Source: a virus. From it: 64,000 nucleotides of DNA. Of the stretch, positions 3,980 through 49,712 are shown piece by piece. The stretch's first letter is position 1; every line of letters begins with the position of its first letter. The notes under the pieces are model-generated. The model made no database searches. It had not been told where the DNA came from and saw only the letters and a list, made by a program, of their open reading frames with translations. The DNA lies in the IMG/VR virus record IMGVR_UViG_3300047443_000090, positions 23,260 through 87,259 of that record; one strand, given 5' to 3'. Position numbers and translations under genes: made by a program.

Positions 3980-4020
3980 GGAAAACTGCGCGCGCTCCCG
4001 CGCAGGCCCGGCTTTACAGT
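3980..4020 (+). promoter_or_regulatory. Late-type promoter, copy I
   Basis: GGAAAA at 3980-3985, exactly 29 bases, then TACAGT at 4015-4020. This is the best -10 of the nine copies. The predicted start is near 4027. No gene begins for 200 bases, so the transcript would carry a long leader across the dif-like site before the small gene at 4233. Confidence 0.6.
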
Positions 4021-4152
4021 TCTACCCAGTCAACGGCGGGATTCCATTGATACCGGGCGCGAAGCCGGTCAGAGCGTGTTGCGGTGGTGCTGTTCACTGC
4101 GGCAAGCGCTGGTCGGTAGGACGGATTCGCGCAACACCCAAATTCGTTTTAT

Positions 4153-4205
4153 GATTATGCGAAGTTAAAAAGTCTTTTAAAATCAAACACTTACTTCGCA
4201 TAATC
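4153..4205. repeat. 13-bp perfect inverted repeat around an AT-rich loop
   Basis: GATTATGCGAAGT (4153-4165) and ACTTCGCATAATC (4193-4205) are perfect inverted copies separated by 27 bases. The right arm is the XerC half of the dif-like site. The left arm is a second, inverted XerC-like half without a recognisable XerD half. Folded as single strand, it would form a hairpin carrying a recombination site. Confidence 0.7.
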
Positions 4206-4220
4206 TTTCTTATGTCAAAT
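4193..4220 (+). other. dif-like XerC/XerD recombination site
   Basis: The 28 bases divide as ACTTCGCATAA (XerC half), TCTTTC (6-base centre) and TTATGTCAAAT (XerD half). The proteobacterial dif halves are RNTKCGCATAA and TTATGTTAAAT, so the left half matches fully and the right half differs at one base. On a plasmid such a site can resolve dimers or serve as a pdif recombination site; on some phages it acts as attP using host Xer enzymes. No phage recombinase was seen in the window. Confidence 0.7.
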
Positions 4221-4232
4221 TGATAAGATTGC

Positions 4233-4391
4233 ATGATAAGTAACAGTAAACCCAAGGTGCGCCAGCGGGGCTTTGTCCTCATCAGCAATGCCTCGATCTG
4301 CGCTGCCATCGTCGTGGTGGCCGCTCTCGGCTGGGGCGTGGTTGAGTTGGCTCGCTGGGCGCTGTCCCATGTTCACCTGTCAATTGCTTGA
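4233..4391 (+). CDS. Small single-pass membrane protein, 52 aa
   Basis: ATG 4233 opens a 52-codon frame. A positively charged start (MISNSKPKVRQRG) is followed by a hydrophobic segment at about residues 22-41 (ICAAIVVVAALGWGVVELA), giving one membrane helix. A short helix ends the protein. The ribosome site is weak. It lies just after the dif-like site and 40 bases before the secreted protein at 4432, so the two may be expressed together as a cell-envelope module. Function unknown. Confidence 0.55.
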   Translation: MISNSKPKVRQRGFVLISNASICAAIVVVAALGWGVVELARWALSHVHLSIA

Positions 4392-4431
4392 CCCAGTTTT
4401 TTAACGTAGTGCAAACCAAAGGAGTGAGAGT

Positions 4432-4782
4432 ATGAAAGGTATGAAACGCAGCATGTTCGCCGTCATGGCTATGGCCGCGATTGCATTCAGTGCAACCGCC
4501 GCGATGGCCGCGCCCGAAGCGCCCAGCATTCATAAAGCCAGCACCTACAAAGCCGCCCAGCCGGTCGCCGTGGTCGCTGTCGAAGCTGTCGCCGTCGATG
4601 TCGCCCGCGTGGCCGTATCGCCCGCTGGCCGCGCGCTGGTCGCAGTTCCCGCCCCGGTGCCGCTGATGCTGGCCCAGCCGGGCGGCGGCGAGCTGGTGAT
4701 GGTATCGACCTCCCTGACCAAGTACGGCTCCCGCGCGGAACTGGAGGCAGAGCACAGTTGGGGCCATAGTCAAAGCACCTAA
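4432..4782 (+). CDS. Secreted Ala/Val-rich protein with signal peptide, 116 aa
   Basis: A strong AAAGGAG site precedes ATG 4432. Residues 1-26 form a classic Sec signal peptide: Lys/Arg near the start, a hydrophobic core, and an AMA cleavage site before APEAPS. The mature part is Val/Ala/Pro-rich (VAVVAVEAVAVDVARVAV) and ends with a short polar tail. It should be periplasmic or exported. It is on the plus strand inside a minus-strand block, and a two-way terminator follows. It may be a lysogenic-conversion gene (inference). No family recognised. Confidence 0.65.
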   Translation: MKGMKRSMFAVMAMAAIAFSATAAMAAPEAPSIHKASTYKAAQPVAVVAVEAVAVDVARVAVSPAGRALVAVPAPVPLMLAQPGGGELVMVSTSLTKYGSRAELEAEHSWGHSQST

Positions 4783-4821
4783 ATCCTGGCGGTCGCCGTT
4801 ATCTGAGAATGCGGCACCAAG

Positions 4822-4854: not shown

Positions 4855-4869
4855 CCATTGTGGCGGGCG

Positions 4870-7816: not shown

Positions 7817-7846
7817 ATTGTATGCGCTCACATTGCGGACGGTCAA
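7817..7846 (-). promoter_or_regulatory. Early-type promoter with conserved operator, copy 3
   Basis: On the minus strand TTGACC (7846-7841), an 18-base spacer, TACAAT (7822-7817). The GTGAGCGCATAC block is intact, but the spacer is one base longer than in the other five copies, with the extra base outside the block. Confidence 0.78.
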
Positions 7847-9718: not shown

Positions 9719-9759
9719 GGAAAATGGGCCGCAGCAGCAATAGGCCGGGCCGGTAACAT
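9719..9759 (+). promoter_or_regulatory. Late-type promoter, copy A (predicted leaderless start)
   Basis: GGAAAA at 9719-9724, 29 bases, TAACAT at 9754-9759. The predicted start site (+1 = 9766) is the A of the ATG of the first baseplate gene, and no Shine-Dalgarno precedes that ATG. Confidence 0.6.
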
Positions 9760-9765: not shown

Positions 9766-10056
9766 ATGGACAATATTTCAGCAAACGATTTGCAGGGCAT
9801 GGTGTCGCACTGGGTTGCGACGCCGCCCAATGGCTACCTCGGCAGCAGCTACGGCGCGGATATTCTCGCCATGCTGCAAACGCCAATGAAAACGGGCTTG
9901 GCCGATGGCTTACTCAACAAGTTGCGCGTTGATGTCCCGCTGGCGGGCGCGCTGCCACCGGCTGCGCTCAATATGTACGCGGTTGATAAAGGCCCGGACA
10001 GGCGAGAAATCTACATCGACGCATCCGGCACGCTGGTTGCACTGGGGGGTAAATAA
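9766..10056 (+). CDS. Hypothetical phage structural-operon protein, 96 aa
   Basis: The first gene of the baseplate operon. It begins MDNISANDLQGMVSHWVATP and ends with a strand pair (YIDASGTLVALGGK). It directly abuts the baseplate J-like gene. The ATG has no Shine-Dalgarno and coincides with the predicted transcript start, so translation is probably leaderless. Position suggests a baseplate wedge component, but the sequence itself is not diagnostic. Confidence 0.65.
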   Translation: MDNISANDLQGMVSHWVATPPNGYLGSSYGADILAMLQTPMKTGLADGLLNKLRVDVPLAGALPPAALNMYAVDKGPDRREIYIDASGTLVALGGK

Positions 10057-11493
10057 ATGGCACTTACACGCGATGATTTTATGCAGGCTATCGCCGCTGA
10101 AATCTCCAATCAACCACTGGCCGCCCAGTTTTATCAGGCGGGCGACCCGCGCTTGCTGGCGCAAATGGGCGCTATGGCAACCATGCTGACGATGATTTCC
10201 CAGCAGATTGACGTACAGAGCATGGAGCCGTTCCTGAAGACGCGCGACACGACCGTGCTGGCCGACGCGACCATGAAGGGCATACTGCCGTTTGCGCGCC
10301 CTGCCCGCGTCACGCTGCTAGTGGAGAACGACGACCCATCCGGGTCTATCACGGTTTCCATTGGCCGCCGCCTCATTGGCGAGCAGGGCCGCGTCTACGT
10401 GGCAGAGACAGCCGCGACCATTGCAGCCGGGCAGTCGGGCACTATCTCGGCCAAGCAACTGACCACACGGACGTTCTCGCATACGGTGAGCGGATCGGTG
10501 CCCTTTTACCCGGTGCAGATTCCAGAATCGACAGACCCGGAGCAGTACATCAGCGGCGTGCTGGTATCTATCGCCGGGGTGCAGTACCCCTATGCCCCGG
10601 AGTTCTCGAATCTCGACGCGAACGAGCCCGGCTTCGCACTGGAAACGGACGAGCTGCGCCGCCTGTTCGCAAAGTTCGGCTGGCGCGACACCTTCGGCGT
10701 GCAGCCAGCGAACGGCACGGTAATCGACTTCATAATCGAGGAAACGAACGGGCAGTCTGCCCTTACCGCAAACCAGCCATTCACATTCGAGGGCTCGGCA
10801 CAAGCTGCTGATCGCAACTCGAAAATCACGCTGTCGTCGGTCACTTTCGTGGGCGCTAACCCGGTCGATATCCAGACCATGCGCGAGTGGGCGCAGTACC
10901 CCAGCACCTATGACGCCTCGGCGGTCTACCTCGGGAACTTCGATTTCCTCGTCCGGCGCAATCTGGCCGATCTCCGATTCCTGTCGGTCTGGAACGAGCA
11001 GATTGAGGAAAGCGTACGCGGCGCGAACGTGAGCAACATCAATACGCTGTTCGTTACCGCGCTCATGGACGGCACTACTACCGCGTGGCTGCAATCCACT
11101 ATCGGCCAAATCATCAGGGATGCCGACGACTCGTACAAAATCAAGTTTGTCACGGCTGTGGAGGTTGAGGTTCCTGTCACGATCAACGCCCAAGTGTCGG
11201 TAGTTCATGACCCGGCTGAAGTGGGCAGCAAAATCCGTTCGATCCTGTCCGGCCTGTACGGGCGCGACGCGACGGCGGTCAAGAGCGGCATGATGGTGCC
11301 GAATTCCAAGCGCATCTATGACGCGCTGAGAGCCGGTGTGCCTGCGCTGGCCGACGCCCTGAGTGATTTTCAGGTGACTATCCCCGCGCCCGCGCCCGCC
11401 ATGAAGCCTGAGCACTACCGCTATGTGTCTGACGCATCCATGACGGTCAACGTCACCCAATCGACTTACAACTCGGGCCTGTTCAGCCACTAA
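10057..11493 (+). CDS. Baseplate wedge protein, J/gp6-like, 478 aa
   Basis: The N-terminal 70 residues are helical. Residues about 85-130 carry the baseplate-J pattern of a strand pair with GSITVSIGRRLIGEQGRVYV followed by TIAAGQSGTISAKQL. The middle includes RNLADLRFLSVWNEQIEESV, and the C-terminal part has EVPVTINAQVSV and a short helix pair, as in gp6/J proteins that form the ring around the hub. It starts one base after its neighbour ends. Length fits the family. The call rests on pattern and position. Confidence 0.7.
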   Translation: MALTRDDFMQAIAAEISNQPLAAQFYQAGDPRLLAQMGAMATMLTMISQQIDVQSMEPFLKTRDTTVLADATMKGILPFARPARVTLLVENDDPSGSITVSIGRRLIGEQGRVYVAETAATIAAGQSGTISAKQLTTRTFSHTVSGSVPFYPVQIPESTDPEQYISGVLVSIAGVQYPYAPEFSNLDANEPGFALETDELRRLFAKFGWRDTFGVQPANGTVIDFIIEETNGQSALTANQPFTFEGSAQAADRNSKITLSSVTFVGANPVDIQTMREWAQYPSTYDASAVYLGNFDFLVRRNLADLRFLSVWNEQIEESVRGANVSNINTLFVTALMDGTTTAWLQSTIGQIIRDADDSYKIKFVTAVEVEVPVTINAQVSVVHDPAEVGSKIRSILSGLYGRDATAVKSGMMVPNSKRIYDALRAGVPALADALSDFQVTIPAPAPAMKPEHYRYVSDASMTVNVTQSTYNSGLFSH

Positions 11494-11496
11494 GCC

Positions 11497-12888
11497 ATGA
11501 CGAACTTTGTAACCCCAATCGCTGCGCCAGCGCTTCAACCGCTGGCGAATAGCTTTGAATATGACCAGCTCGAAAGCGAGCTGAAGGCGGTATTCTCAAC
11601 CGTCTTTGAGAGCCTTGTCCGTGACCGCGAGCGCAACCTCAATATGTACGGCATGGCGCACATCGGCGGCGATGACCTGATGGCTAGTAGCCTGAAGGCT
11701 GACGGGATCGCAATGGTGCGCCGCAGCTCGACACGGATGCAGTTCTTGATGAAGGCAGAGCGCTCGCGCAACCCGCGCCGTGGCCTGCTGTTCATCAAGA
11801 AGTACCTGCAATCCATCTGGCCGAACATTTGGGTTTGTGAGCCGCTGTGGCAGCCGGTGAGCGATACTGTCAACTACCCTTCCGCTGCGATACCCCTCAC
11901 GTCAGAATTGAGCATCGGCTCGGGCGTGACTGCGGATTACGCGGGCGGTGCGGTAGGCGACCCGGTGGCGCTATACCGCACTGATGGGACTGGTAAAAAC
12001 CTGCTGTACACCACGCCGCGCACCAATGCCTTGCGCAACAACACAATGCAAGGGGCCGTTAGCGGAACGCCGGGGACGCTTCCTACGAACTGGACGCTTG
12101 GAGCCGCACCCGGCCTGACGCAGCAGGTTGTTGGCGTGGGCTCGACTGGGGGTATCTCCTATATCGACGTTCGCGTTTTCGGTACGCCTACTTCCGTTGC
12201 AAACAGTTCTGCATTTCACTTCGATCTCCACGCAGTAGTTAATGCGGCAGTAGGCGAGAGCTGGACGGCCAGTGCATTCATCGCGCTCATTGCGGGATCG
12301 CTCGCAAACGTCGCCAACTTCGGTATCGGCTTTCGTGAGAGCGATGCCGCTGGGACTGCCCTTGTAACCGGATTGGGTGCGGCGGTCGCGCCTACGGCGA
12401 CCCTGACGCGCTACAGCGAAACGCACATTAATACGAATGCTGGGACGGCTAAGGCGAATTGCAACATTCGGTGGACGAATATCAATACCGTGTCGCCGGT
12501 AGATTTCACCCTGCGCATCGGTATGCCGCAGCTAGAGCAATCGAGCGTGGCAACGTCACCGATCCCGACGACGAACGCCGCAGTAACCGTGACGGACTAC
12601 TCCATTTCCGCGAGCGGCGTGGCGACGTTCGCCAGCGGCCCGCCGCCCACGAACGTTCGATACTTCCGCACCAGCCGCACCCGCATCACCCTGCCGGTGT
12701 CGGTGGACAACGGCCTCGGCCTGACGGAAATCGCAAAGGCGTTCCGCTCCACGCTGGCCGCGCGCCTGATGCTGGAATTCAAGCTGGGTACGGTTTTCGA
12801 CAATAGCGGCAATAACGGCGGGCTTGCGCTCGCAAATGCCACCATCGGCATCATGCCAATCACACTTATCGGCACGCTTCAAAACTAA
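11497..12888 (+). CDS. Baseplate/tail protein with an inserted carbohydrate-binding-like domain, 463 aa
   Basis: Residues 1-125 form a helical tail-protein-like domain (LLFIKKYLQSIWPNIWVCEP). Residues about 160-365 look like a beta jelly roll: NALRNNTMQGAVSGTPGTLP at its start and PQLEQSSVATSPIPTTNAAV near its end, the signature of sugar-binding modules in phage tails. The C-terminal part (about 380-463) returns to a baseplate-like domain. The jelly roll appears spliced into a conserved baseplate protein and may contact surface glycans (inference). Confidence 0.65.
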   Translation: MTNFVTPIAAPALQPLANSFEYDQLESELKAVFSTVFESLVRDRERNLNMYGMAHIGGDDLMASSLKADGIAMVRRSSTRMQFLMKAERSRNPRRGLLFIKKYLQSIWPNIWVCEPLWQPVSDTVNYPSAAIPLTSELSIGSGVTADYAGGAVGDPVALYRTDGTGKNLLYTTPRTNALRNNTMQGAVSGTPGTLPTNWTLGAAPGLTQQVVGVGSTGGISYIDVRVFGTPTSVANSSAFHFDLHAVVNAAVGESWTASAFIALIAGSLANVANFGIGFRESDAAGTALVTGLGAAVAPTATLTRYSETHINTNAGTAKANCNIRWTNINTVSPVDFTLRIGMPQLEQSSVATSPIPTTNAAVTVTDYSISASGVATFASGPPPTNVRYFRTSRTRITLPVSVDNGLGLTEIAKAFRSTLAARLMLEFKLGTVFDNSGNNGGLALANATIGIMPITLIGTLQN

Positions 12889-12897
12889 GAGGATCAC

Positions 12898-14971: not shown

Positions 14972-14976
14972 CCATA

Positions 14977-15017
14977 GGAAAATAGCGCACTCCCCGCCTC
15001 GAAGCGAGCCGCAAAAT
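14977..15017 (+). promoter_or_regulatory. Late-type promoter, copy B
   Basis: GGAAAA at 14977-14982, 29 bases, CAAAAT at 15012-15017. The predicted start is near 15024, giving an 18-base leader that contains GAGGT before ATG 15042 of the tail fibre. Confidence 0.6.
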
Positions 15018-15041
15018 ATATCGGTTCACTTCGAGGTAACG

Positions 15042-16523: not shown

Positions 16524-16532
16524 GGAGCCGAA

Positions 16533-36347: not shown

Positions 36348-36376
36348 TTGACGGCATAAACGTGAGCGCATACAGT
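36348..36376 (+). promoter_or_regulatory. Early-type promoter with conserved operator, copy 6 (plus strand)
   Basis: TTGACG at 36348-36353, a 17-base spacer, TACAGT at 36371-36376, with GTGAGCGCATAC at 36362-36373. It is the only copy on the plus strand and drives the small genes at 36423 and 36679, separating them from late control. Confidence 0.8.
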
Positions 36377-37135: not shown

Positions 37136-37176
37136 GGAAAACTCGCGCCAGCCGGGCGCAATGCACGCGCAACAAT
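37136..37176 (+). promoter_or_regulatory. Late-type promoter, copy E
   Basis: GGAAAA at 37136-37141, 29 bases, AACAAT at 37171-37176. The predicted start is near 37183, giving a 22-base leader to the portal gene. Confidence 0.6.
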
Positions 37177-39585: not shown

Positions 39586-41700
39586 ATGTTTAATTCTGAC
39601 CGCGATGGCTTTCTGATCCCCGACGCGCCACTTCGCACCGACGAGCTGGCGCAGGGCATCATGGGCGTAAGGCGTAATACCGACACGATCATTGGTTTAT
39701 TGAAGGGGCGGGCAAAGGCTGCAACCCTTCAGCGCGCCCGCGTTGTAGTGCAGGGCAGCGCCAGAGGCGCTACAGGCTCGCCATTATCCGCAGGCGAGCA
39801 TCCGGGCGCACAGGCCCGCCGTGGGCCTTCAGGCGGCGCTATGGGCTCGTCTGCCGATGCTGGCGCGCGCGTGGCGGGCGCGGCCCGCCGTGGACCGTCT
39901 GGAGGCGCTACGGACGCATTGCCAGAGCGTGACAGCCGTGGCCGATTCGTCGCAAAGCCAATCGGTGACGTGGCAAAGGCTGTTCGCCAGCTTACGCGGC
40001 AGCAGTCCCAGGATATGGCTGAAAATTCGCGCCGCGAGGCCGCGCGCGAAAACCGCGAGGGCGGCAGCGCGGCAGGCGGCGAGCAGCAGCGCGACGCGCG
40101 CGGGCGGTTTGGCGCGGGCGGCGGCGGCCCCAATGACGACAAGGAAGGCGGCGATAGCAAGAGCCTCACCCTTGCCATCCTGAAGGCTGCGGCTCAGGGC
40201 GGCGCTGCGGCGCTGGGATCGACTGAAAAAGTAGACCCGGCAATTGAATCGGCGCAGGAAATTCATGGCATGGTAAGCGGCGCGGTATCAGCGCTCAAAA
40301 CTACCGGCAAACTTGGCATCGCGGTGGCCGGGCGCGCGTTCGGCAGCGCGAAAGAAAAGGATGTGCCGTGGTATCGCAAGCTGTTGCAGCAATTGAAGTT
40401 GATGCGCAGGGATGACGGCGAATTTCACCGTGCCGAGCTGCGCGCGCTGAATAACCGCGCTGGTGGCGGTGGCGGTGGCGGTGGCGGCGGTAGCGCGCTG
40501 CCTGACTGGGTGCCCAAGCTTCCGGGCGCTGTGCCTAAGCTGCTAGGGGCCGGTGCAAAGCTGCTTGGTAAGCTCGCGTTGCCAGCAGCCGCTATCGGGT
40601 CGGCTATCAAGTCATTTGGCACCAACACGAGCGATTATGCTGATCGCCTTGGGACAAAGGATGATGGCGGCATTGCAAAAAGCCTTGGCATACGCGCTGC
40701 CGGTGTGTTGGGCGACTTGGGGAGCACGCTCACACTCGGGCTGGCCGACAAACTTGGAAAATCAGAAACGCTGGGGAAAGTAATCGAGAAATCGGTTTCT
40801 GGCCTGTCGGCGGCAAAGGACTGGGCGCTAGGTAAAACGTCGCAGCTATTCGAGTCTGGACGCAAGGGCGCGGGCACCATATCTACGGGCAAGGGCGACA
40901 ACGGCGGCGTGTCTTACGGCACCTACCAGATGTCCACCACGAAGGGCGTTGCCGGGGATTTCGTAAAGGGCTCCAAGTACGCCAAGGACTTCGAGGGACT
41001 GAAGCCGGGCACTCCCGAGTTTAGCGCGAAGTGGAAGGAGGTTGCGGCGGCAGACCCATCATTCGGCCAAGCGCAGCACGACTATATCCAAAAGACCAAG
41101 TACGAGCCGCAGCAGCAAAAGCTGAAGGATTCAGGCATTGACCTGTCCAAGCGCGGCGCGGCGGTGCAGGATGCAATATGGTCAACCTCCGTGCAGTTCG
41201 GCGGCAATACGTCACTGATACAGGGCGCGCTGAAGGGCAGGGATGCCGCGAAAATGTCGGACGCGGAAATCGTGACTGCGATTCAGGACTACAAGCTGAA
41301 AAACAACGACGCGCTGTTCAAAAGCTCGTCGCCCGACGTGCGCGCATCGACAGCCAAGCGGGCGCAGAACGAGAAAGTTGACTTGCTTAAGCTGGCAGAA
41401 GGCGCATCGCCAGTAGCTCCGCCGACTGGGCTGGGCATCACAAGTTCGCCCGCTCCCAGCATCCCCCTGCCCACCGCAGGAGCAACCGTACCGGCGTCAC
41501 TGGCCGCCCCGGCCTCTATCCGCCCGCCGCCTGTCAGCGTAGCCCCTGCCCCGCCGCCTGCCGCGTCGCCGGAACTCCACGTTCCGTTGACCAGTAAAGG
41601 GCCGCTAGAAGTCACGGTGCGTAACGACCAGCTCGCCAATCAAGACGTAAAGGATCGCCGCCTTGCGCAAATTGCTACTGGTGGCGTATCAGGGGCGTAG
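39586..41700 (+). CDS. Virion-associated cell-wall hydrolase, possibly tape measure, 704 aa
   Basis: Residues about 1-190 are disordered Arg/Gly/Ala-rich, with two copies of RRGPSGGA. Hydrophobic helices follow at about 300-345 (GAVPKLLGAGAKLLGKLALP). The hydrolase-like domain, about 420-560, contains ESGRKGAGTISTGKGDNGG, SYGTYQM and IQKTKYEP, a pattern I know from phage tail lysozymes. The C-terminal 120 residues are a Pro-rich tail. It would cut peptidoglycan during DNA entry. No separate, longer tape measure was seen, so this protein may also serve that role. Confidence 0.65.
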   Translation: MFNSDRDGFLIPDAPLRTDELAQGIMGVRRNTDTIIGLLKGRAKAATLQRARVVVQGSARGATGSPLSAGEHPGAQARRGPSGGAMGSSADAGARVAGAARRGPSGGATDALPERDSRGRFVAKPIGDVAKAVRQLTRQQSQDMAENSRREAARENREGGSAAGGEQQRDARGRFGAGGGGPNDDKEGGDSKSLTLAILKAAAQGGAAALGSTEKVDPAIESAQEIHGMVSGAVSALKTTGKLGIAVAGRAFGSAKEKDVPWYRKLLQQLKLMRRDDGEFHRAELRALNNRAGGGGGGGGGGSALPDWVPKLPGAVPKLLGAGAKLLGKLALPAAAIGSAIKSFGTNTSDYADRLGTKDDGGIAKSLGIRAAGVLGDLGSTLTLGLADKLGKSETLGKVIEKSVSGLSAAKDWALGKTSQLFESGRKGAGTISTGKGDNGGVSYGTYQMSTTKGVAGDFVKGSKYAKDFEGLKPGTPEFSAKWKEVAAADPSFGQAQHDYIQKTKYEPQQQKLKDSGIDLSKRGAAVQDAIWSTSVQFGGNTSLIQGALKGRDAAKMSDAEIVTAIQDYKLKNNDALFKSSSPDVRASTAKRAQNEKVDLLKLAEGASPVAPPTGLGITSSPAPSIPLPTAGATVPASLAAPASIRPPPVSVAPAPPPAASPELHVPLTSKGPLEVTVRNDQLANQDVKDRRLAQIATGGVSGA

Positions 41701-41707
41701 CCGCGAA

Positions 41708-41743
41708 GAAATGAAAATGTGGTATGGTGCAACCTTTCATTTC
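41708..41743. repeat. 9-bp inverted repeat before the LprI-like gene
   Basis: GAAATGAAA (41708-41716) and TTTCATTTC (41735-41743) are perfect inverted copies around an 18-base loop with a possible extended -10 (GGTATGGTG). It could be an operator or an mRNA stem before the gene at 41758. Confidence 0.4.
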
Positions 41744-41757
41744 CCCATGATAGCCCC

Positions 41758-42144
41758 ATGAAATTTGTTACGACGCTGATCCTTGTGGCCGCCTCTGGCA
41801 TGTGCGGCGCTGCCGAGCCAAGCTATACTAAGCAGTTCAGCGCGTGCATGAGCGCTTCGGACGGGGTCACCGATGCGATGCTTGACTGTATAGCGACGGA
41901 AACCCGAAATCAGGATGCCATGCTCAACGCGACCTACAAGGTTGCGCTGAAGGCGACGCGGAAGCCGCGCCAGCCAAGGCTGCAAGAGGCGCAGCGCAAC
42001 TGGCTAAAGTTCCGTGACTCGAATTGCGGCTTCTACGCTGACCCCGAGCATGGCACGAGCGCTGATGTAGCTGCCGCCGACTGCGCGTTGTCGATGACGG
42101 CAGCGCGCGAACAAGAATTGCGCATGTTCACCGAGTCAGAATAG
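41758..42144 (+). CDS. LprI/DUF1311-like secreted protein, 128 aa
   Basis: ATG 41758 gives a signal peptide (MKFVTTLILVAASGMCGAA); a longer frame from 41719 would bury it. The mature part has KQFSACMSASDGVTDAMLDC, then LQEAQRNWLKFRDSNCGFYA and a final AADCALSM helix, the LprI/DUF1311 pattern of Cys-bonded helical proteins with Trp. LprI-type proteins can inhibit lysozymes in the periplasm. It lies right after the tail lysozyme gene and before a terminator, so it may be a lysogenic-conversion gene. Confidence 0.65.
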   Translation: MKFVTTLILVAASGMCGAAEPSYTKQFSACMSASDGVTDAMLDCIATETRNQDAMLNATYKVALKATRKPRQPRLQEAQRNWLKFRDSNCGFYADPEHGTSADVAAADCALSMTAAREQELRMFTESE

Positions 42145-42205: not shown

Positions 42206-42246
42206 GGAAAACCCGCCCGAGTACCTTGTCACCGCTGCGTCAAAGT
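42206..42246 (+). promoter_or_regulatory. Late-type promoter, copy F
   Basis: GGAAAA at 42206-42211, 29 bases, CAAAGT at 42241-42246. The predicted start is near 42253; the leader contains AGGTGA before ATG 42279. Confidence 0.6.
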
Positions 42247-42278: not shown

Positions 42279-42767
42279 ATGACCATTTCGACTGGCGCAT
42301 ATCTGGCGCAATCCTACGGGCAGGTAAAGGCACTGGGCGACAAATCCATTTCGTCCGATGCAATGTTCGTTATCGACGGCTTCGAGCATTTGCGCCTGCT
42401 GGCAAAGCAATTCCCTTGGCCGATTCTCTCGACCGCTGGTGAAATCGAGACTGTCACGCCAATGGGCGGTGCCGCGTGGCAGTCGCAGCAGCTCAAGACG
42501 AACATGCAAGGGCAGGTCACGTTCTACGAAACCGTGCGTGGCGACATCGAGCAATTCATCGAAATGATCGCGTCCGCAGGCGGCAAGTTCAACGGCAGCA
42601 TCTACGAGGGCACGATGGAGCGTCACAGCCGTGGCGTCCGCATCGTTGATGCGTTCTTCCAGTTCGATAGCCCGGATCGCGACTGGGAAAACCGCGCGCA
42701 GGCCACTACCGTTTCCGGCACCCTGTTCTACCACTACTTCGGTGAAAAAATCCCCGGCAACATTTAA
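42279..42767 (+). CDS. Tail tube protein, gp19-like, 162 aa
   Basis: It is compact and beta-rich: AMFVIDGFEHLRLLAKQFPW, then QVTFYETVRGDIEQFIEMIA and GVRIVDAFFQFDSPDRDWEN. This order (strand, loop, helix near residue 90, then two long strands) is that of contractile tail tube subunits, and the length is typical. Hexamer rings would stack to form the DNA channel inside the sheath. It leads a unit of its own under promoter F. Confidence 0.7.
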   Translation: MTISTGAYLAQSYGQVKALGDKSISSDAMFVIDGFEHLRLLAKQFPWPILSTAGEIETVTPMGGAAWQSQQLKTNMQGQVTFYETVRGDIEQFIEMIASAGGKFNGSIYEGTMERHSRGVRIVDAFFQFDSPDRDWENRAQATTVSGTLFYHYFGEKIPGNI

Positions 42768-42779
42768 GGGTAAATAGCC

Positions 42780-43163
42780 GTGACACTGGGAGAACTGGCC
42801 TTATCGGTCAACTGGGCATTCGGCCTCGTCATAGACGACGCCGACATCAAGAAACAGGCGTGCAACGCTGCGCGCCTGTATCTGACGTGGGGCGACATCG
42901 CCAGCCTCGCCACTAGCGATCCGTCTGTGGCGCTTGATGACGTTGACGAGAACTGCGACATCACGCCGGGCGAATGGGGCGTTATCAAGGCGCTGCATGT
43001 GCTCTACGTGGAGCGCGAGAACGCGCGCGCGCTGGAGGCGTCGCGCGGTAACGGCGTGGACGTGTACGGGCGCACAGTGTCGGAGATTGACCAAGCTATC
43101 ACGCAATACGAGTCGCAGGACTTGCCGCGCGCCGCGTTCTCGCAACTGCCGGAATCAATCTAA
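42780..43163 (+). CDS. Head-tail or baseplate accessory protein, 127 aa
   Basis: It starts with GTG 42780 twelve bases after the tube gene. It is mostly helical: IKKQACNAARLYLTWGDIAS, WGVIKALHVLYVERENARAL and SEIDQAITQYES. The pattern resembles small head-completion proteins but also tail chaperones. It precedes the hub gene with no gap. Function uncertain. Confidence 0.5.
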   Translation: MTLGELALSVNWAFGLVIDDADIKKQACNAARLYLTWGDIASLATSDPSVALDDVDENCDITPGEWGVIKALHVLYVERENARALEASRGNGVDVYGRTVSEIDQAITQYESQDLPRAAFSQLPESI

Positions 43164-44042
43164 ATGATTTCGATTGAGGGCGTGCGCGCCGAGTTCCTGC
43201 TGTCTGGATGCCTCCGGTACGATCTAGCGCCTATCCCGCTCACGCTGGAGGCGCAGATTCGCATTACCCCGGCAACCGCGCCCCTGATGCAAGACGGCGG
43301 GCTGATCCGGGTAAATGAAATCCCCTTCCGCATCATCAAGTGCGAGCCGCTGCGCAATGTCGGCGGCGGCCCGCAGGGCGATTCTCCGCTGTCTGCCGTT
43401 ACCATCACGGCATTCCCTGACGCGGTAGTTGGAGTGGCCCGTAGGCGTCGCTCTGCCGTTATCGCGCAGGGCGAATCATTCGCGTCAATTTACAGGTCGT
43501 GCGGCGCTACCGTGGGCATTGATGGCGACTTCCCGGTAAGCCGCTTCGCATGTTTCAAAGGGAGCGTACCGACGTTCAACTTAGCCCAAATTCTGCAAGA
43601 GGAATCGGCGGTAATGATGTGGGCATCTGGCCGTGTGAAGATCATGCGGCTACGTGATGTCATGGCACAAGCGCCAGTAATAGGGCTGTCCGTAACCGCG
43701 TCAGAGGACGTTGCAAGTAGCTTTCTCGAAAACGACGAAATCCCCACTTACATATCGACCGGCCCCGATGGGAAATTCATCTTGGGGGCGCGGCGCTTTG
43801 AGTCGCAGGCAGTCAAGTATTCGCCGCACAAGGGCGAGCGGGAGCTTGGCTATATGGGGCGCGTGCTGGTGCGTCGGCGGGTTCTTACCAGCCTCCCAAA
43901 TCTAAGCCTTCAGGCCGGTGCTGTTGTTGAATCGCGCAATGGGCCAATGGTCGTTATGACGGCAGCGCACTACATGCAAAACAACACGGACGGAGCTGGG
44001 GCGTCCCAGTATTCGCGCTTTTGGCTTGGGAGCATTTCATGA
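43164..44042 (+). CDS. Baseplate hub protein, gp27/gpD-like, 292 aa
   Basis: Beta-rich with LTLEAQIRITPATAPLMQDG in the first domain and SLQAGAVVESRNGPMVVMTA near the C-terminus. The helix-turn near residue 105 (QGESFASIYRSCGATVGIDG) is typical of hub proteins, where it is followed by a barrel bearing the spike. The next gene is the spike and overlaps it, which supports the call. It would form the trimeric hub that joins the tube to the spike. Confidence 0.65.
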   Translation: MISIEGVRAEFLLSGCLRYDLAPIPLTLEAQIRITPATAPLMQDGGLIRVNEIPFRIIKCEPLRNVGGGPQGDSPLSAVTITAFPDAVVGVARRRRSAVIAQGESFASIYRSCGATVGIDGDFPVSRFACFKGSVPTFNLAQILQEESAVMMWASGRVKIMRLRDVMAQAPVIGLSVTASEDVASSFLENDEIPTYISTGPDGKFILGARRFESQAVKYSPHKGERELGYMGRVLVRRRVLTSLPNLSLQAGAVVESRNGPMVVMTAAHYMQNNTDGAGASQYSRFWLGSIS

Positions 44043-44632
44043 TTGGCTTGATGCCTGCTGAAGTAGATTCAATCGACCGCGAAAAGCGCATCGCGCGCGT
44101 TCGCATTCCGGGGCTGACCGATGGCGCAACGAGCCTGCCGGAAGCGCAGTTCTGCAACCCAGTGGGCGACAAAAGCGAACACACGGAAATTCGCATCAAG
44201 CCCGGCGACCGTGTTTGGCTGGCCTTTGAGGGCGGCGATCCGCGCTACCCAGTCATCGTCGGCTACCGCCCGCGCAATCAGGAAAACGGCATCGACTGGC
44301 GGCGCTTCGAGCACGCAAACTTTCAATTCGACGCCGACCAGAATTTCATCATCAACGCTGGCGCGAATGTAACCGTGAATGCGGTCAACGTGGCCGTGAA
44401 TGCGTCATCGAAGGCGACGGTTACTTCGCCGTCAATTCTGGTCGATTCGGCTGATACCAAGTTCACCGGGCCAGTGACCATACAGGGCTTGCTTACCTAC
44501 GCGGCGGGCATGAGTGGGACGGGCGGCGCTGACATCGCGGGGAGCATGAAGAACAACGGCAAGAACATCGGCAGCACTCACGTTCACAGCGGCGTGGGAC
44601 GCGGACAAAGCAATACGGACGCACCAACTTAA
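44039..44632 (+). CDS. Baseplate spike protein, gpV-like, 197 aa
   Basis: ATG 44039 overlaps the hub stop as ATGA. Residues 1-85 form an OB fold (RIARVRIPGLTDGA, then TEIRIKPGDRVWLAFEGGDP and PVIVGYR). A repetitive strand region follows (INAGANVTVNAVNVAVNASS), as in the triple beta-helix of P2 gpV or phi92 spikes. The C-terminus has STHVHSGVGRGQS, an HxH metal site typical of iron-tipped spikes. It would pierce the outer membrane when the sheath contracts. Confidence 0.78.
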   Translation: MIGLMPAEVDSIDREKRIARVRIPGLTDGATSLPEAQFCNPVGDKSEHTEIRIKPGDRVWLAFEGGDPRYPVIVGYRPRNQENGIDWRRFEHANFQFDADQNFIINAGANVTVNAVNVAVNASSKATVTSPSILVDSADTKFTGPVTIQGLLTYAAGMSGTGGADIAGSMKNNGKNIGSTHVHSGVGRGQSNTDAPT

Positions 44633-44650
44633 AGGGAAAGCAGGGAAAGC

Positions 44651-45142
44651 ATGGCAGATAAAAAAACACTGATTTTCGACTTCTTCGAGCTGTCGGAAAA
44701 AGACGCCTCGATTAAGAAAGCGAAGCGCTACTTCGAGCAGGCCGGGGCGAGCGTGACGAGCGTCGATGTGGACTCGAAGGTACGCCGCGCCGCTGGCGTG
44801 TCCTACCGCGAAGTGCAGTTCGGCTTTGCCGATAGCCAGTCGGTCAGCTTCGGCGTGAAAAACACTGGCGACGTGTATCAGGTCAAGGTCAACGGCAAGC
44901 TGACCCCACTGAAAGCGCAGGACGACCACCTGAAGGCAATCGGTGAAATCGTGGCCGCGATGACCAAGGGCAGGGCCAAATTCCAAGCGGCGCTGGCAAA
45001 GGCCAAGGTTGCATTGCCCGCCTCGATCCGCACCGCCGCCCCAAAGATGGAGCAGGCATTGCGCGAGCAGATTACGGCGGTAGACGAGGCAATCGTCGCG
45101 GCAACCGAACGGCTCGCCGCCTTGCAGCCAGCAGCGGCTTAG
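44651..45142 (+). CDS. Candidate internal head or scaffold protein, 163 aa
   Basis: The N-terminal 100 residues are alpha/beta (KKTLIFDFFELSEKDASIKK, then SYREVQFGFADSQSVSFGVK). The C-terminal 60 residues are helical (APKMEQALREQITAVDEAIV). The position right before the capsid gene fits a scaffold. I also recall a distant likeness to small DarA-related proteins, which are internal head proteins of P1-type phages; this is from memory. It ends before late promoter G. Confidence 0.45.
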   Translation: MADKKTLIFDFFELSEKDASIKKAKRYFEQAGASVTSVDVDSKVRRAAGVSYREVQFGFADSQSVSFGVKNTGDVYQVKVNGKLTPLKAQDDHLKAIGEIVAAMTKGRAKFQAALAKAKVALPASIRTAAPKMEQALREQITAVDEAIVAATERLAALQPAAA

Positions 45143-45182
45143 GAAAACTGGCGGAAATCACGCTGCGCCCCGCCTTGACAAT
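45142..45182 (+). promoter_or_regulatory. Late-type promoter, copy G, before the capsid gene
   Basis: GGAAAA at 45142-45147, overlapping the end of the previous gene by one base, 29 bases, GACAAT at 45177-45182. The predicted start is near 45189. The leader is about 69 bases, longest of those that lead directly to a gene, and includes a GTGCGG/CCGCGC hairpin and AAGGTAGGA. Confidence 0.62.
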
Positions 45183-45257: not shown

Positions 45258-46892
45258 ATGAGCGGAACTGAAAAGAAGTACACCACCAATGATGCCAACG
45301 AGCTGCAAAAGTTCGTCAGCACCGTTACCAGCGCTGAAGGCAAAGAAGGCGTGGTATTCGATTCGGCCAGCATGACCGCATCGGCGGTTGATGCAATTGG
45401 CAATCAATCCGGCAGCACCCCGCGCGTGCTGTCCGAACTGCTGGGCGTTTCGACCATTGAAGAAAAGGCCATCGTCAAGGCCGTGTTCGATGGCGTCAAT
45501 GCGTACACCCGCGAACATGGCGTCGCACCGACCGGCGACGTTCTGCTGTCGGCAATTCACCAAGCGCGCGGCATCTTCGACTCGGTGAGCAACGGCCACC
45601 ACGACCAGATTTCGGTGTTCCCGAATGCCCCTATCGTCGCCATCATGGGCGCGATGGCCGAAGCAACCCCGTTCGCTGGCTACCTGCCCGCCGACAAAGG
45701 CTCGAATGAAGCCCGCCTCATCATCGTCAACCACAATGCCGGTAGCGCATGGGGCGATTACAAGGCTGGTGACATCATGGACGGTATCGCCGCTGGCGGT
45801 TCCTACCTCGGTTCCTCGCGCACTGCTGAACTGGCCGCGCCGAACGACACCGTAAACTACAAATTCACCTTCAAGAACGGTTCGGACGGCTCCGGCGCGG
45901 TGTTGAACATGCTGCGTGGCCGCTCCATCATCTACGTCAACGGCGTGATGGCTGCAACCGAATCGGCAAACGGCCCTAGCGGCGCGGCCACCGTTGCAAT
46001 CAACGGCTACATCAACTTGGGCGGCACCGATTACACGCTGGCGGGCACCGTCAAGCCAGCCAGCGGCGAAGTTGTCGTTACCCCTACCCCGGCCTTCCCC
46101 GGCGGCACCGTAGTTACCACCGAAGTATTCGTGGACTACGAAGCTGACCCAAGCGTGACGCCACGCATGGCCGTGCAGGCATCCAGCTACTCGCTGTTCG
46201 CCAACCCGTTCCGTGCCATCTACCAGATCACCCCTGAAGCTCGCTCGCAGTTTGCGAACGAAGTGGGCGTGGACGCTGGCGCCGAAGCGATGCTGGCGGT
46301 TCGCGGCCAGTACGCGCAAGAGCGCCACTACAACGCGCTGACCAAGGCCAAGATGATGGGCAAGTACAACAACGCGGCCACCTACGACTTCGCCTATGCT
46401 GCGCAAATCCTGCAAAAGACCCGCGCACAAATCTGGCAAGACTTCGCCTCGGTACTGGGCGCTGTCTCGCAAAAGATGGCCGAAGATACCGCCGACCACG
46501 GCGTCACCCACCTGTACGTTACCCGCAGCGTCGCCGCGCAGTTCCTGTCGATGCCGCGCGAGCTGTTTGAGCCGAGCGGCATCACCGCACGCCCTGGCGT
46601 CTACCGCGTGGGCCGCCTGTTCGGCCTGTACGACGTGTACTACACCCCGAAGGTGCTGAATGAAGCAGGCGGCGGCGCTACTGCCGAAATCCTGTGCGTT
46701 GGTCGCTCGACCCAAACCGCGCGCTGCCCGATCATCTTTGGCGATGCGGCGGCCCCAGTATTCGAGCAACTGGGCACCGGCACCGACCTGAAATCCGGCT
46801 ACGGCTTCAATGCGCGTTCGTTCACTGCGACGAACCCGCACCTGATGTCGGCCAAAGGTGCCGCGCTGATTACCGTCAGCAACCTGAAGTAA
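45258..46892 (+). CDS. Major capsid protein, 544 aa
   Basis: The N-terminal 110 residues are helical (VLSELLGVSTIEEKAIVKAV). The central domain is beta-rich, with an insertion at about residues 205-300 (GTVVTTEVFVDYEADPSVTP). The C-terminal domain has RGQYAQERHYNALTKAKMMG, then VTHLYVTRSVAAQFLSMPRE and a strand pair FGLYDVYYTPKVL, as in T4 gp23/P1-type capsid proteins of the HK97 fold. The long leader and strong ribosome site fit an abundant protein. Confidence 0.78.
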   Translation: MSGTEKKYTTNDANELQKFVSTVTSAEGKEGVVFDSASMTASAVDAIGNQSGSTPRVLSELLGVSTIEEKAIVKAVFDGVNAYTREHGVAPTGDVLLSAIHQARGIFDSVSNGHHDQISVFPNAPIVAIMGAMAEATPFAGYLPADKGSNEARLIIVNHNAGSAWGDYKAGDIMDGIAAGGSYLGSSRTAELAAPNDTVNYKFTFKNGSDGSGAVLNMLRGRSIIYVNGVMAATESANGPSGAATVAINGYINLGGTDYTLAGTVKPASGEVVVTPTPAFPGGTVVTTEVFVDYEADPSVTPRMAVQASSYSLFANPFRAIYQITPEARSQFANEVGVDAGAEAMLAVRGQYAQERHYNALTKAKMMGKYNNAATYDFAYAAQILQKTRAQIWQDFASVLGAVSQKMAEDTADHGVTHLYVTRSVAAQFLSMPRELFEPSGITARPGVYRVGRLFGLYDVYYTPKVLNEAGGGATAEILCVGRSTQTARCPIIFGDAAAPVFEQLGTGTDLKSGYGFNARSFTATNPHLMSAKGAALITVSNLK

Positions 46893-46925
46893 TCGGCTTT
46901 CATAAACCATAAAAGGACGGCAACA

Positions 46926-47231
46926 ATGGCAAAGCAAAAAGCCAGTGTTGCCGGTTCCAATTCGGAACCGGCAGCAGGCAATACGGAAGGCATGGGCGCG
47001 TCCCATGAAGTAGTCGCGGCATTCCCGCGCGAGGTCGAAATCATCAACGATACCGCGATCCCGTTCACCATCGCTCGCGCATATATCGAGCCGCGCACCT
47101 CCGTGCGCGTCATGGTGGGCGACGACGACGAAATCACCCGCATCAAGACCGACTGCGAACACATCCTGTCGATGAACGAAGTGTATGCAGCGCTGGAAGT
47201 GCCAGCGCTGCGCGTTGTTGACACCATCTAA
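46926..47231 (+). CDS. Hypothetical head or tail accessory protein, 101 aa
   Basis: The N-terminus is a flexible Ala/Glu-rich stretch. The rest is compact alpha/beta (FPREVEIINDTAIPFTIARA, then SVRVMVGDDDEITRIKTDC). It lies between capsid and sheath genes, a common place for neck or decoration proteins, but no clear match is seen. A GGAC-type site precedes ATG 46926. Confidence 0.55.
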   Translation: MAKQKASVAGSNSEPAAGNTEGMGASHEVVAAFPREVEIINDTAIPFTIARAYIEPRTSVRVMVGDDDEITRIKTDCEHILSMNEVYAALEVPALRVVDTI

Positions 47232-47245
47232 GGGAAAGGGAACTG

Positions 47246-48877
47246 ATGTTCACCCCTCACACTCGCCAACTGGGCGCACAGCCCGGCGTGCAACTGAATC
47301 CGCTGCGCGATTCGACGGACGGCTTCGCTGGCGACAATAGCGACCAGATCGCCGCTGTTGTAGGCCGGTTCCGCCGTGGCCGTATCGACCGCGCTTTCCG
47401 CGTCAACCGCCAAAACCTGCGCACGAAGCTGGGCGTGCCTGAATCCCTGCGCGTGTCGGCGCTGAATGAAGCCTATGTACAGACCTATGAAGGTGTGAAC
47501 AACGGCATCTACGAGGCTGTGGTAGCGCGCCTCGTCACCTCTGCCTACACCAATGGCTACGCCGTTTTCAACATCGCCGGAACTGGCACGTCGTCGTTCT
47601 CGGTATCGCCTACCGTCCCAGCAGGCCCGTATCTGTTCTACCTGCAAATGCTCGACTGCTTCAATGATGGCTACCAGTTTGAGCTGTTGGCTGCAAAAGT
47701 TCTCGCGTCGGACGGCGTTACCTCGGCACCTGCAAAAGTCGTAACTCTGCGCGTGCGTGAGCCCGATGGCACGCTGATGCACGAATTCACTGGCTCGCTC
47801 GACTCGCTGGCTGTCGATGAATACGGCAAGGACTACTTTATCGGCACCGTCATCGCAAACCAGACCGACGCTGTGCAGATCACCGTTTTCAACGGCGCAA
47901 CCGTCCCGATTAACGCTGATTGCTATGGTCGCAATACGGATGGTTCGGACAAGGTTGCGGCAAGTGGCGCAAACCCGCTCGTACTGTTCACCGAAGGCGG
48001 CACTGGCTACATCGCTACCGACTACGACAGGGCAATCGCCCTGCTGGAAAACGGTTCGGTTGACTTCGGCTATATCTACAGCGGCGGTTCGCAAGCGGTA
48101 TCCCTGCTGTCGAAGCTGGCGCAGCTCGCGGTGCGCGCCAACCGCCAGTTTGCGTTCGACGTTCCCGGCAACCTGACGCCGACAGCGGCCATCACGTTCA
48201 TTGCTCAATTGAACCTCGATACCCATTATGCGCAAGCGTACTGGGCACCGCTGATTACCGATGATCCGGTCAACGGCGGCAAGGCTTATATCGGCACGGC
48301 GGCCTATAACGTTGGCCTGCGCTGCGCCCGCAACGCGCAGACCAATGCCTATGGCTTGCCCCCCAAAAACTTCCCGGTCGCGGGCAAGGAATGGCCGCTG
48401 AATCGTACCGGCGTCAAGCAAACCGGCGCACCAAACGACTATGAACTGAGCGATTTGGCTACCGCCAAGATCAACCCGGTTCTGTACCAGCGCTACAACG
48501 GCGGCGGCGGCAAGTACGTTTTCACCGACGTTCTGACCTGCGCCAAGGTTGCGACCTCGTATCGCAAACTAGTATCCGTGTCGGAAATGAGCGCGACCGT
48601 GGATGATATGGTTGCCAAGTTCGGGCGCGAGGTAATGCTGCTGCCGATTGATACCGCAATGAAGCGGCTCGACTCGTTCCTGAAATCGACTTTCGATGCC
48701 TGCCGTTCGTCTGACTGGCTGGTTGCATCCGATGATCCGGTGCTGGGCGAAAAGGGCTATACCTTCACGGTGGCCCGCAATAAGGTTCGCCCGGCTGACC
48801 GCATCGACGTTACCTACGGCACGCACTACGATGGCGTTGCTCGCGCAATCTACATCACGCAAACCCTGTCCAAATAA
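47246..48877 (+). CDS. Tail sheath protein, 543 aa
   Basis: The C-terminal half is typical of contractile sheaths: SVDFGYIYSGGSQAVSLLSK, LDTHYAQAYWAPLITDDP, NVGLRCARNAQTNAYGLPPK and ATAKINPVLYQRYNGGGG, a set of strands and helices that wrap the tube. An N-terminal domain and a variable middle domain (about 105-230) precede it. Ends with the strand TYGTHYDGVARAIYITQTL that links neighbouring subunits. Contraction drives the tube through the envelope. Length and order fit P1 and T4 sheaths. Confidence 0.85.
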   Translation: MFTPHTRQLGAQPGVQLNPLRDSTDGFAGDNSDQIAAVVGRFRRGRIDRAFRVNRQNLRTKLGVPESLRVSALNEAYVQTYEGVNNGIYEAVVARLVTSAYTNGYAVFNIAGTGTSSFSVSPTVPAGPYLFYLQMLDCFNDGYQFELLAAKVLASDGVTSAPAKVVTLRVREPDGTLMHEFTGSLDSLAVDEYGKDYFIGTVIANQTDAVQITVFNGATVPINADCYGRNTDGSDKVAASGANPLVLFTEGGTGYIATDYDRAIALLENGSVDFGYIYSGGSQAVSLLSKLAQLAVRANRQFAFDVPGNLTPTAAITFIAQLNLDTHYAQAYWAPLITDDPVNGGKAYIGTAAYNVGLRCARNAQTNAYGLPPKNFPVAGKEWPLNRTGVKQTGAPNDYELSDLATAKINPVLYQRYNGGGGKYVFTDVLTCAKVATSYRKLVSVSEMSATVDDMVAKFGREVMLLPIDTAMKRLDSFLKSTFDACRSSDWLVASDDPVLGEKGYTFTVARNKVRPADRIDVTYGTHYDGVARAIYITQTLSK

Positions 48878-48891
48878 GAAGGAGATACCAA

Positions 48892-49620
48892 ATGTTTAAC
48901 AATCACCCCCTGCGCGAAGCCATGATCACGGCTGTCACCAAGCCAGCGGTAGCCGAAAAAAAAGGCGGCTCGCCTATTTTCGACAGCGCCAACGATGGCG
49001 AAATGGCGATGTCGGGCGCGGCCTCCTATGCCGCTGCCGATATGCGCCTGAAAGCTGCGGCAGTCGTGCAGCAATGGGCCGAAACTACCGCTGACGATAT
49101 GGGCGGCGGCGAAACGCTGTCGGATCGCCTGATCGCAATGGTTGTAGGCGTCGTTGATGCTGACAAGGATGGCGAAATCTCGGACGTGGAGCAGGAAGTG
49201 TGCGACATGCTGCTGAACGAGATTTACGACTACCTCGAAACCAAGGGCGTGTCGGAAAGCGACTGCGATGCGCTGCTGAACGACGGCGACGCCGAAGCTG
49301 GCGAGCGCGTGCATGATCTGATCGTGGCCGCCCTGCCCGATGGCGACGAAGCCGCCGCTGCCGAAATGGACGCCTTCGCGTTCGACAAGGAATCGGACAG
49401 CGCCGTATTCGATGCTGCCGTTCTCGATGCCGTCTACAAGAAGAAGGTCGTCATTCGCGCGGGCCATAAGGTTCGCATCAACAAGCGCGTTTCCGGCCAT
49501 GTGCGCCTGTCGGCAAAGCAAAAAATCTCGATCCGCAAAATGCTGCGCAAGTCGCACTCCGCAACTGCCACCATGCACCGCATGAAATCGACGCGCATTC
49601 GCCGTCAGGCTGGTCTGTAA
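48892..49620 (+). CDS. EF-hand-containing tail-operon protein, 242 aa
   Basis: An AAGGAGATA ribosome site precedes ATG 48892. At residues 89-100 the sequence DADKDGEISDVE is a canonical EF-hand loop with ligands at 89, 91, 93, 95, 97 and 100. The helices before and after fit. The C-terminal 70 residues are very basic (KKKVVIRAGHKVRINKRVSG, then KSTRIRRQAGL) and could bind nucleic acid. It lies between sheath and a terminator. It may sense Ca2+ or be a structural Ca2+ site in the tail (inference). Confidence 0.65.
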   Translation: MFNNHPLREAMITAVTKPAVAEKKGGSPIFDSANDGEMAMSGAASYAAADMRLKAAAVVQQWAETTADDMGGGETLSDRLIAMVVGVVDADKDGEISDVEQEVCDMLLNEIYDYLETKGVSESDCDALLNDGDAEAGERVHDLIVAALPDGDEAAAAEMDAFAFDKESDSAVFDAAVLDAVYKKKVVIRAGHKVRINKRVSGHVRLSAKQKISIRKMLRKSHSATATMHRMKSTRIRRQAGL

Positions 49621-49636
49621 CAAGCTATAGCGCCAT

Positions 49637-49667
49637 AAAAAGGGCCGGGTAAAACCGGCCCTTTTTT
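49637..49667 (+). terminator. Rho-independent terminator after the EF-hand gene
   Basis: AAAAAGGGCCGG (49637-49648) pairs with CCGGCCCTTTTT (49655-49666) around a GTAAAA loop, with a further T. Late promoter H starts five bases later. Confidence 0.92.
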
Positions 49668-49671
49668 CTTT

Positions 49672-49712
49672 GGAAAACTCGCCCGGATGCTCCCTACTTT
49701 GGCACGCATACT
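49672..49712 (+). promoter_or_regulatory. Late-type promoter, copy H (predicted leaderless start)
   Basis: GGAAAA at 49672-49677, 29 bases, CATACT at 49707-49712. The predicted +1 is 49719, exactly the A of the next ATG, which has no Shine-Dalgarno. Confidence 0.65.

Follow-up and report, generated by a model that had tools for sequence, protein, structure and literature searches.

The late genes of P1, the textbook phage-plasmid, lie in many dispersed units whose promoters have a -10 hexamer without the usual -35; these promoters have a ACAAGTGACT-like box at -22, and the activator is Lpa (gp10). P2 late promoters likewise serve dispersed units and have an upstream activator site and no -35; the P2 Ogr sites lie near -55. 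At the lambda promoter PRM, CI is an XRE activator that sits near -42 beside sigma region 4 and binds palindromes as a dimer. The late genes of Mu are activator-dependent, with an activator site upstream of the -35 position and non-consensus promoter elements (PMC4461284). Here we describe a promoter class, GGAAAA followed by exactly 29 bases (N29) and a -10-like hexamer, in a 64,000-base stretch of viral DNA, hereafter the window (bases 23260-87259 of the 87,259-base IMG/VR record IMGVR_UViG_3300047443_000090). The source record is a P1-like phage or phage-plasmid of 87 kb; its remaining 23 kb, outside the window, was also analysed, and genes of at least 40 residues were called. From the sequence, it is likely that the nine intergenic sites of this class are late (virion-gene) promoters, with gp20, an XRE-type protein encoded in the same record, as the best candidate for their activator.

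A preliminary description of the window had listed nine sites, and their GGAAAA boxes, exact 29-base spacers and nine hexamers were all verified. The hexamer has the form NANANT in eight of the nine, and the copy at 9719 fits the looser form NANNNT. All nine are intergenic and face plus-strand genes. The sites, as predicted promoters, and the units that follow them are:

3980-4020, plus strand: predicted late promoter 1; GGAAAA at 3980-3985, -10 TACAGT at 4015-4020, predicted +1 at about 4027; followed by two short open reading frames (ORFs; 4233-4391 and 4432-4782) without assigned function
9719-9759, plus strand: predicted late promoter 2; -10 TAACAT at 9754-9759, predicted +1 at 9766, the A of an ATG (predicted leaderless); baseplate unit, 9766-14971
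14977-15017, plus strand: predicted late promoter 3; -10 CAAAAT at 15012-15017; tail fibre unit, 15042-19507
22759-22799, plus strand: predicted late promoter 4; -10 GACAAT at 22794-22799, ATG at 22805, 5 bases on (predicted leaderless); DarA-like unit, 22805-28922
28932-28972, plus strand: predicted late promoter 5; -10 CATACT at 28967-28972, predicted +1 at about 28979; DarB-like unit from 29016
37136-37176, plus strand: predicted late promoter 6; -10 AACAAT at 37171-37176; portal/tail unit, 37205-42144
42206-42246, plus strand: predicted late promoter 7; -10 CAAAGT at 42241-42246; tail tube unit, 42279-45142
45142-45182, plus strand: predicted late promoter 8; the box overlaps the upstream stop codon by its first G; -10 GACAAT at 45177-45182; capsid unit, 45258-49620, assigned by blastp to the P1 gene annotated gp23
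49672-49712, plus strand: predicted late promoter 9; -10 CATACT at 49707-49712, predicted +1 at 49719, the A of an ATG (predicted leaderless); unit from 49719 with a PmgG-like gene, then a putative lysis cassette (assigned by eye) and tail fibre genes

The preliminary description had placed the copies before structural and antirestriction genes. This holds for eight sites, which open the baseplate, fibre, DarA-like, DarB-like, portal, tail tube, capsid and PmgG-like units, and does not hold for the site at 3980. Promoters 6, 7 and 9 are directly preceded by a terminator-like hairpin. The window matches the strict pattern GGAAAA-N29-NANANT 11 times, always on the plus strand; dinucleotide shuffles gave an expectation of 0.33 and none of 100 reached 11, so that the motif is not as frequent in shuffled sequence. 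When the hexamer was relaxed to NANNNT, the noncoding plus strand, in a window that is 7.7% noncoding, had 9 matches at N29, and each of the other spacings between 10 and 50 had 0-4. GGAAAA alone occurs 28 times on the plus strand and 7 times on the minus strand. A site is present before 9 of the 17 plus-strand genes that have an upstream gap of at least 40 bases.

The record is like P1 in that it has homologous portal, capsid, DarA and DarB genes, many dispersed late units with a -10 that lacks the usual -35, and a (candidate) activator gene beside the terminase genes, which in P1 is placed there by annotation. It differs in the box: here GGAAAA would lie at -47 to -42, whereas in P1 the box of all 11 annotated late promoters is at -22 and GGAAAA is absent from the corresponding place. 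The window holds one match to the ACAAGTGACT-like box with 1 mismatch (minus strand, 18943-18952), where 1.65 are expected. The comparison genomes were the window's own record (Q), three further IMG/VR records (G1, G2 and G3), phage Rb1 (RB), the B. vietnamiensis plasmid pBVIE05 (BV), part of an Ideonella plasmid (ID), four Pseudomonas plasmids (PS, PA, PP and PF), two Acinetobacter plasmids (AO and AS, the latter from A. soli), phage ABMM1 (AB), an Aeromonas plasmid (AE) and P1. The Lpa gene was found in P1 and was not found in the window record or the other 14 non-P1 records, and Lpa matches came only from enterobacterial records. P2 resembles the window in its dispersed late units, upstream site and lack of a -35, and Mu in its activator site upstream of the -35 position and its non-consensus elements; the class described here differs from Mu in having a single box at a nearly fixed 29-base spacing. 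Neither the Ogr/Delta zinc-finger family nor the Mor/C family was found in any of the 15 records, and each was found in 1 of 14 control genomes. Membership of the P1, P2 or Mu types was rejected because no -22 box, Lpa, Ogr/Delta or Mor/C protein was found, in agreement with the earlier claim that the class differs from all three. Lambda CI offers a functional analogy only; the box here is non-palindromic and gp20 has a long helical C-terminal region. The window does have what activator-dependent late promoters generally have, a -10 and a fixed upstream box before units of virion genes, and by analogy the class may work like these promoters without the tested hallmarks of P1, P2 and Mu. A search limited to open-licence literature found no description of the promoter class or of gp20, which is weak evidence for that scope alone. 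The available portion of PMC10345192 mentions an Xre regulator and does not contain the word promoter.

The preliminary description had proposed scanning the complete element and its relatives, and the spaced element was found intergenically there with its geometry retained over diverged spacers. The late region is syntenic among the window record, G1 and G2, and the latter two each have nine intergenic plus-strand elements. These stand before the orthologue of the window's downstream gene in seven of nine cases in G1 and eight of nine in G2, and their spacers keep the 29-base length with most letters changed. G3 and RB also have the element before late genes. Hexamer and ATG are separated by 6 bases at 9719 and at 49672 and by 5 at 22759. 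At promoter 2 this gap is 6, 6, 5 and 6 bases in the window record, G1, G2 and Rb1, and at promoter 9 the 6-base gap is also found in G1 and G2. For each genome, the gaps upstream of genes were also enumerated for every hexamer placed 14-35 bases ahead of NANNNT, with a gap limit of 250 bases that leaves the 3980 site outside. GGAAAA-N29 was the best shared dyad of the gaps of the window record, where it occurred in 8 gaps; in 60 gap shuffles no dyad occurred in more than 4. The box ranked first in 10 of 13 genomes, and in the remaining three it came within the first four dyads. GGAAAA-N29, or its one-base-shifted register, ranked first in Q, G1, BV, G3, ID and RB. The top dyad was GGAAAG-N29 in PS (12 gaps), TGGAAC-N29 in AB (13 gaps), CGCAAA-N30 in PP, which is GCAAAC-N29, and AAACCC-N27 in PA, which is the same site and weak. 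G2, PF and AO had the box among the top four and not first, with AO one base shorter. A. soli has TGGAAT-N29 at 4 sites. No comparable dyad was found by the enumeration in P1, and no strong dyad in the Aeromonas element. The box is GGAAAA in elements of Burkholderiales, Xanthomonas and others, GGAAAG, GCAAAC or GGAAAA in those of Pseudomonas, and TGGAAC/T in those of Acinetobacter, and the geometry holds within one base.

The window's portal is related to the portals of P1, Xanthomonas phage Rb1 and many phage-plasmids, and a portal profile found 441 related viral loci, of which 80 were kept and 77 analysed (L009-L011 are discovery records and were left out). In the noncoding sequence of these 77 IMG/VR loci, GGAAAA with NANNNT occurred 116 times at N29 and 2-28 times at other spacings (28 at N28, 28 at N36 and 14 at N30). 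In coding sequence of the same loci the 31 matches at N29 fell within the range of 14-48 and there was no peak, so that the intergenic sites stand out from coding hits in the comparison that the preliminary description had proposed. Directly upstream of the portal, N29 was found in 48 of 73 loci, N28 in 10 and other tested spacings in 0-6; L096, L124, L151 and L152 start too near the match and were not included. Of the 110 distinct sites, only 2 have an identical copy in a discovery genome. A -10 emerges over 173 distinct boxes when none is imposed (A in 70% at -11 and T in 73% at -7), and noncoding boxes number 187 on the late strand versus 32 on the opposite strand. An ATG stands at an offset of exactly six bases from the hexamer in 32 of these 110 sites (31 of 108 when the two discovery-shared sites are removed) and at any other offset in 0-7. 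With the -10 hexamer ending at -7, +1 at a site with an ATG at offset 6 falls on the first base of the start codon; several late mRNAs are therefore predicted to be leaderless and to start on the A of AUG. No base exceeds 43% at -35 to -30 over the 110 sites, and a sigma-70 promoter with a -35 hexamer 16-18 bases before the -10 was rejected, as no -35 is conserved. No second half-site stands out around the box over the same sites. The lack of a -35 and the label 'late' had both been given before and stand as statements about sequence only; the retained spacing, the strand bias, the unimposed -10 and the ATG that marks +1 all favour the earlier suggestion that GGAAAA is an activator box. In 28 whole records longer than 60 kb, three discovery records not counted among them, the GGAAAA pattern was found 247 times on both strands, coding sequence included, versus 49 for a reversed control.

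Loci in host genomes extend these counts (L276 was left out, as its match lies at an edge; ten loci belong to elements that the IMG/VR counts had already included). Upstream of the portal in 68 such loci, the N29 box was GGAAAA in 20, TGGAAC in 9, GGAAAG in 2 and GCAAAC/G in 2; GGAAAT alone was found in 2 and the P1 -22 box in 2. GCAAAC/G alone is not above the spacing controls in these loci (2 versus 0-3). No box at N29 was found in the 11 Enterobacterales loci, and among the other 57 any one of five box forms stood at N29 in 35 loci and at N28 in 13, with 2-13 for the other spacings between 18 and 40. GGAAAA hosts include Paraburkholderia, Burkholderia, Pigmentiphaga, Halomonas, Ectothiorhodospira, Luteibacter and others, and TGGAAC hosts are Acinetobacter, Alkanindiges and one Moraxella.

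The preliminary description had identified no activator in the window; the candidate found here lies outside it, in the same record:

record 14453-15157 (window -8806 to -8102): gp20, just before the terminase genes and about 8 kb to the left of the window

An AlphaFold2 model of the gp20 protein shows an XRE helix-turn-helix at residues 29-95 and, after it, long helices at 106-167 and 178-213; its mean predicted local distance difference test (pLDDT) score is 78.6 and its predicted template modelling score 0.47, with a pLDDT of 81-88 in the helix-turn-helix block. The long C-terminal helices of the model probably form a coiled coil. Model, profile and fold matches all place the helix-turn-helix in the Cro/CI-type multi-helix fold. 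Profile matches include the ICEBs1 Xre regulator (E 3.6e-7) and SinR (8.7e-5), and the best Foldseek matches are the 434 repressor, ClgR, C.Csp231I and SinR (best E 0.0026, none below 0.001). The gp20 family is found in 13 of 13 promoter-bearing genomes and, among called genes outside the virion units, is the only such family that is absent from P1. A six-frame profile search with the record's non-virion genes found gp20 in 14 of 14 genomes when A. soli, which was outside the set that built the gp20 profile, is included, and not in P1 or the Aeromonas element at a threshold of E 0.001; no other called family outside the virion units shows this distribution. All 28 further long records have it as well, with best E values of 4.7e-37 or lower. 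In 10 of 14 genomes the gp20 gene is upstream of the one for the large terminase, at a distance of 0.9-5.4 kb. With tblastn, gp20 matched only Rb1 in a set of 50,697 phage records and only BV and ID in one of 72,556 plasmid records, which says little on the rarity of the family because this search misses the PS, PA, PP, PF, AO and AB members that the profile finds. A gp20 profile scan of viral contigs gave 50 loci, weaker matches among them.

The main box and the gp20 recognition helix were compared in 42 records. Where the main box is GGAAAA, I or V precedes a conserved Glu in 28 of 28 records. GGAAAG goes with W in two of three, GCAAAC with F or Y in three of three, and TGGAAC/T with an N-R...E recognition helix in three of three. 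Elements hosted by Pseudomonas have GGAAAG and GCAAAC boxes, each with its own regulator type, which argues for a phage factor rather than a host factor. The activator that reads the box is probably gp20, to judge from this pattern and its distribution.

In the proposed mechanism, gp20 would be made before the late genes from an operon on the terminase side and would bind the box, which is not palindromic and lies at -47 to -42, beside the position expected for sigma region 4. Host RNA polymerase with its main sigma would use only the -10 hexamer of these promoters, which lack a -35, and gp20 would recruit or stabilise the sigma-70 polymerase. By supplying the missing contact, the activator would let the late units start together. 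Several late mRNAs would begin on the A of AUG.

Several results weigh against this assignment. In the window, a site is lacking from eight of the 17 larger gaps before plus-strand genes. Among the long records, the counts of the pattern and of the reversed control are 7 and 12 in G029, 7 and 6 in G030 and 1 and 1 in G031, and 31 of 68 host-genome loci have no box at N29 upstream of the portal, including three of three Psychrobacter and three of three Collimonas loci; in some box-less loci the aligned match begins inside the gene. The enumeration fixed the form of the -10 beforehand as NANNNT. Its signals are weak in PA and PF, a TTGACG dyad outranks the box in G2, unrelated dyads do so in AO and PF, and in A. 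soli the AT-rich dyads GCATAA/TGCATA come first and box forms fifth and eighth. The spacing is also not fully fixed, as the gaps of BV are split between N29 (4) and N30 (6), AO is shorter by one base and some loci have N28. With respect to gp20, XRE proteins usually bind palindromes as dimers, and the gene is 10-25 kb from the terminase in PS, AO, AB and AS. In the helix comparison, 4 of the 28 GGAAAA records rest on a single site, G030 (one GGAAAG site) departs from its group and 5 of 42 records have no site in the examined flank; co-variation of box and helix follows clades, and the counts ignore phylogeny. A very small activator could have been missed, as genes below 40 residues were not called.

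This last point, together with the distance of gp20 from the terminase in four of 14 genomes, leaves some room for a promoter class that is the same but whose box is read by another, very small or unannotated phage protein, with gp20 serving, for example, in lysogeny control or packaging. The gp20 protein is apparently unstudied, its match to Pfam HTH_31 does not reach the cut-off and there are repressors among its PHROG matches. We consider this unlikely, as gp20 is the sole called non-virion family with the right distribution and its recognition helix varies with the box. It is considerably less probable that a host factor or alternative host sigma reads the box and is merely exploited by the phages. 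Box type does broadly track host group, with GGAAAA in Burkholderiales and others and TGGAAC in Acinetobacter, but the box varies among Pseudomonas-hosted elements (GGAAAG, GCAAAC and, before one portal, GGAAAA), and a single box spans hosts from Burkholderia to Xanthomonas, Halomonas and Ectothiorhodospira. A host sigma would also have to contact a box 29 bases from the -10, which is too far for a sigma -35. In principle, the repeats could mark the late genes in some other way, for example as sites of packaging or recombination, or be due to chance. That is highly improbable given their fixed place upstream of units, their -10 and +1 signals and their orientation towards the genes; a chance origin was rejected on the dinucleotide shuffles, the gap shuffles and the preference for N29.

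If the nine sites are late promoters activated by gp20, a broader scheme can be put forward tentatively. A single-half-site XRE family, gp20, may be the ancestral late switch of P1-like phage-plasmids of Beta- and Gammaproteobacteria, with Lpa as its replacement in Enterobacterales; the recognition helix would set the letters of the box, the geometry of about 29 bases would be frozen, and leaderless late mRNAs would be there by design, favouring bulk late translation. The late switch of P1, with Lpa and the -22 box, may be the exception among its relatives. With 441 portal-related viral loci, and a gp20-type regulator in each of the 28 long records tested, late-gene maps of a large group of elements become predictable from sequence, and one protein is named for testing. 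The natural series of matched boxes and recognition helices is material for reading a protein-DNA code, and the predicted leaderless virion genes make a question of translation directly testable.

Other features were observed beside the nine sites. One hairpin is nested with a promoter:

28957-28992, plus strand: terminator hairpin, -23.5 kcal/mol, z -7.7; encloses the -10 of promoter 5

A sequence matching this nested terminator is found in G1 and G2. RNA from the predicted start at 28979 lacks the 5' arm of the hairpin and folds at -3.5 kcal/mol (z 0.4), so that read-through from upstream could be stopped and the new transcript left unblocked.

Promoter 1 is also present at the equivalent place in G1 and G2, and blastp did not link the ORFs that follow the 3980 site to the ORFs at the same place in these two records. 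The region 4040-4782 has short conserved segments after the promoter in the three phages, followed by a short Ala/Val-rich ORF with a signal-like start (116, 89 and 133 residues). The region may hold a small RNA, a leader or a secreted protein that changes rapidly. Rfam gave no family at the gathering score in the window and no match up to E 1 in 3900-4500.

Three further N29 matches are intragenic, at 29771 (in the DarB-like gene), 44281 and 51287. Those at 44281-44321 and 51287-51327 recur in G1 and G2 within conserved coding sequence, and coding constraint could for this reason explain them. The match at 51287-51327 stands shortly before holin- and endolysin-looking genes and could be either a lysis promoter or a result of such constraint. 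A 677-base gap (53260-53936) before the last tail fibre unit has no late box.

The TTGACG dyad, the second recurrent dyad in the window record and G2, was set apart as an early-type promoter with an embedded 13-bp operator-like sequence, which was examined in the window record. The sequence GTGAGCGCATACA has seven exact copies in the record, six of them in the window:

1824-1836, 3931-3943, 7819-7831, 21688-21700 and 22703-22715, minus strand: exact GTGAGCGCATACA copies
36362-36374, plus strand: exact GTGAGCGCATACA copy
record 21168, minus strand, outside the window: exact GTGAGCGCATACA copy

With 3 mismatches allowed, the count in the window is not above chance. Exact copies are found elsewhere in BV (4) and G2 (1), with none in G1, G3, RB or ID. 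Each copy stands shortly after TTGAC, runs into a -10-like hexamer and lies upstream of early-type genes. The likely reading is that these are early promoters and that the repeated sequence is the dispersed operator of a repressor, comparable to the C1 operators of P1.

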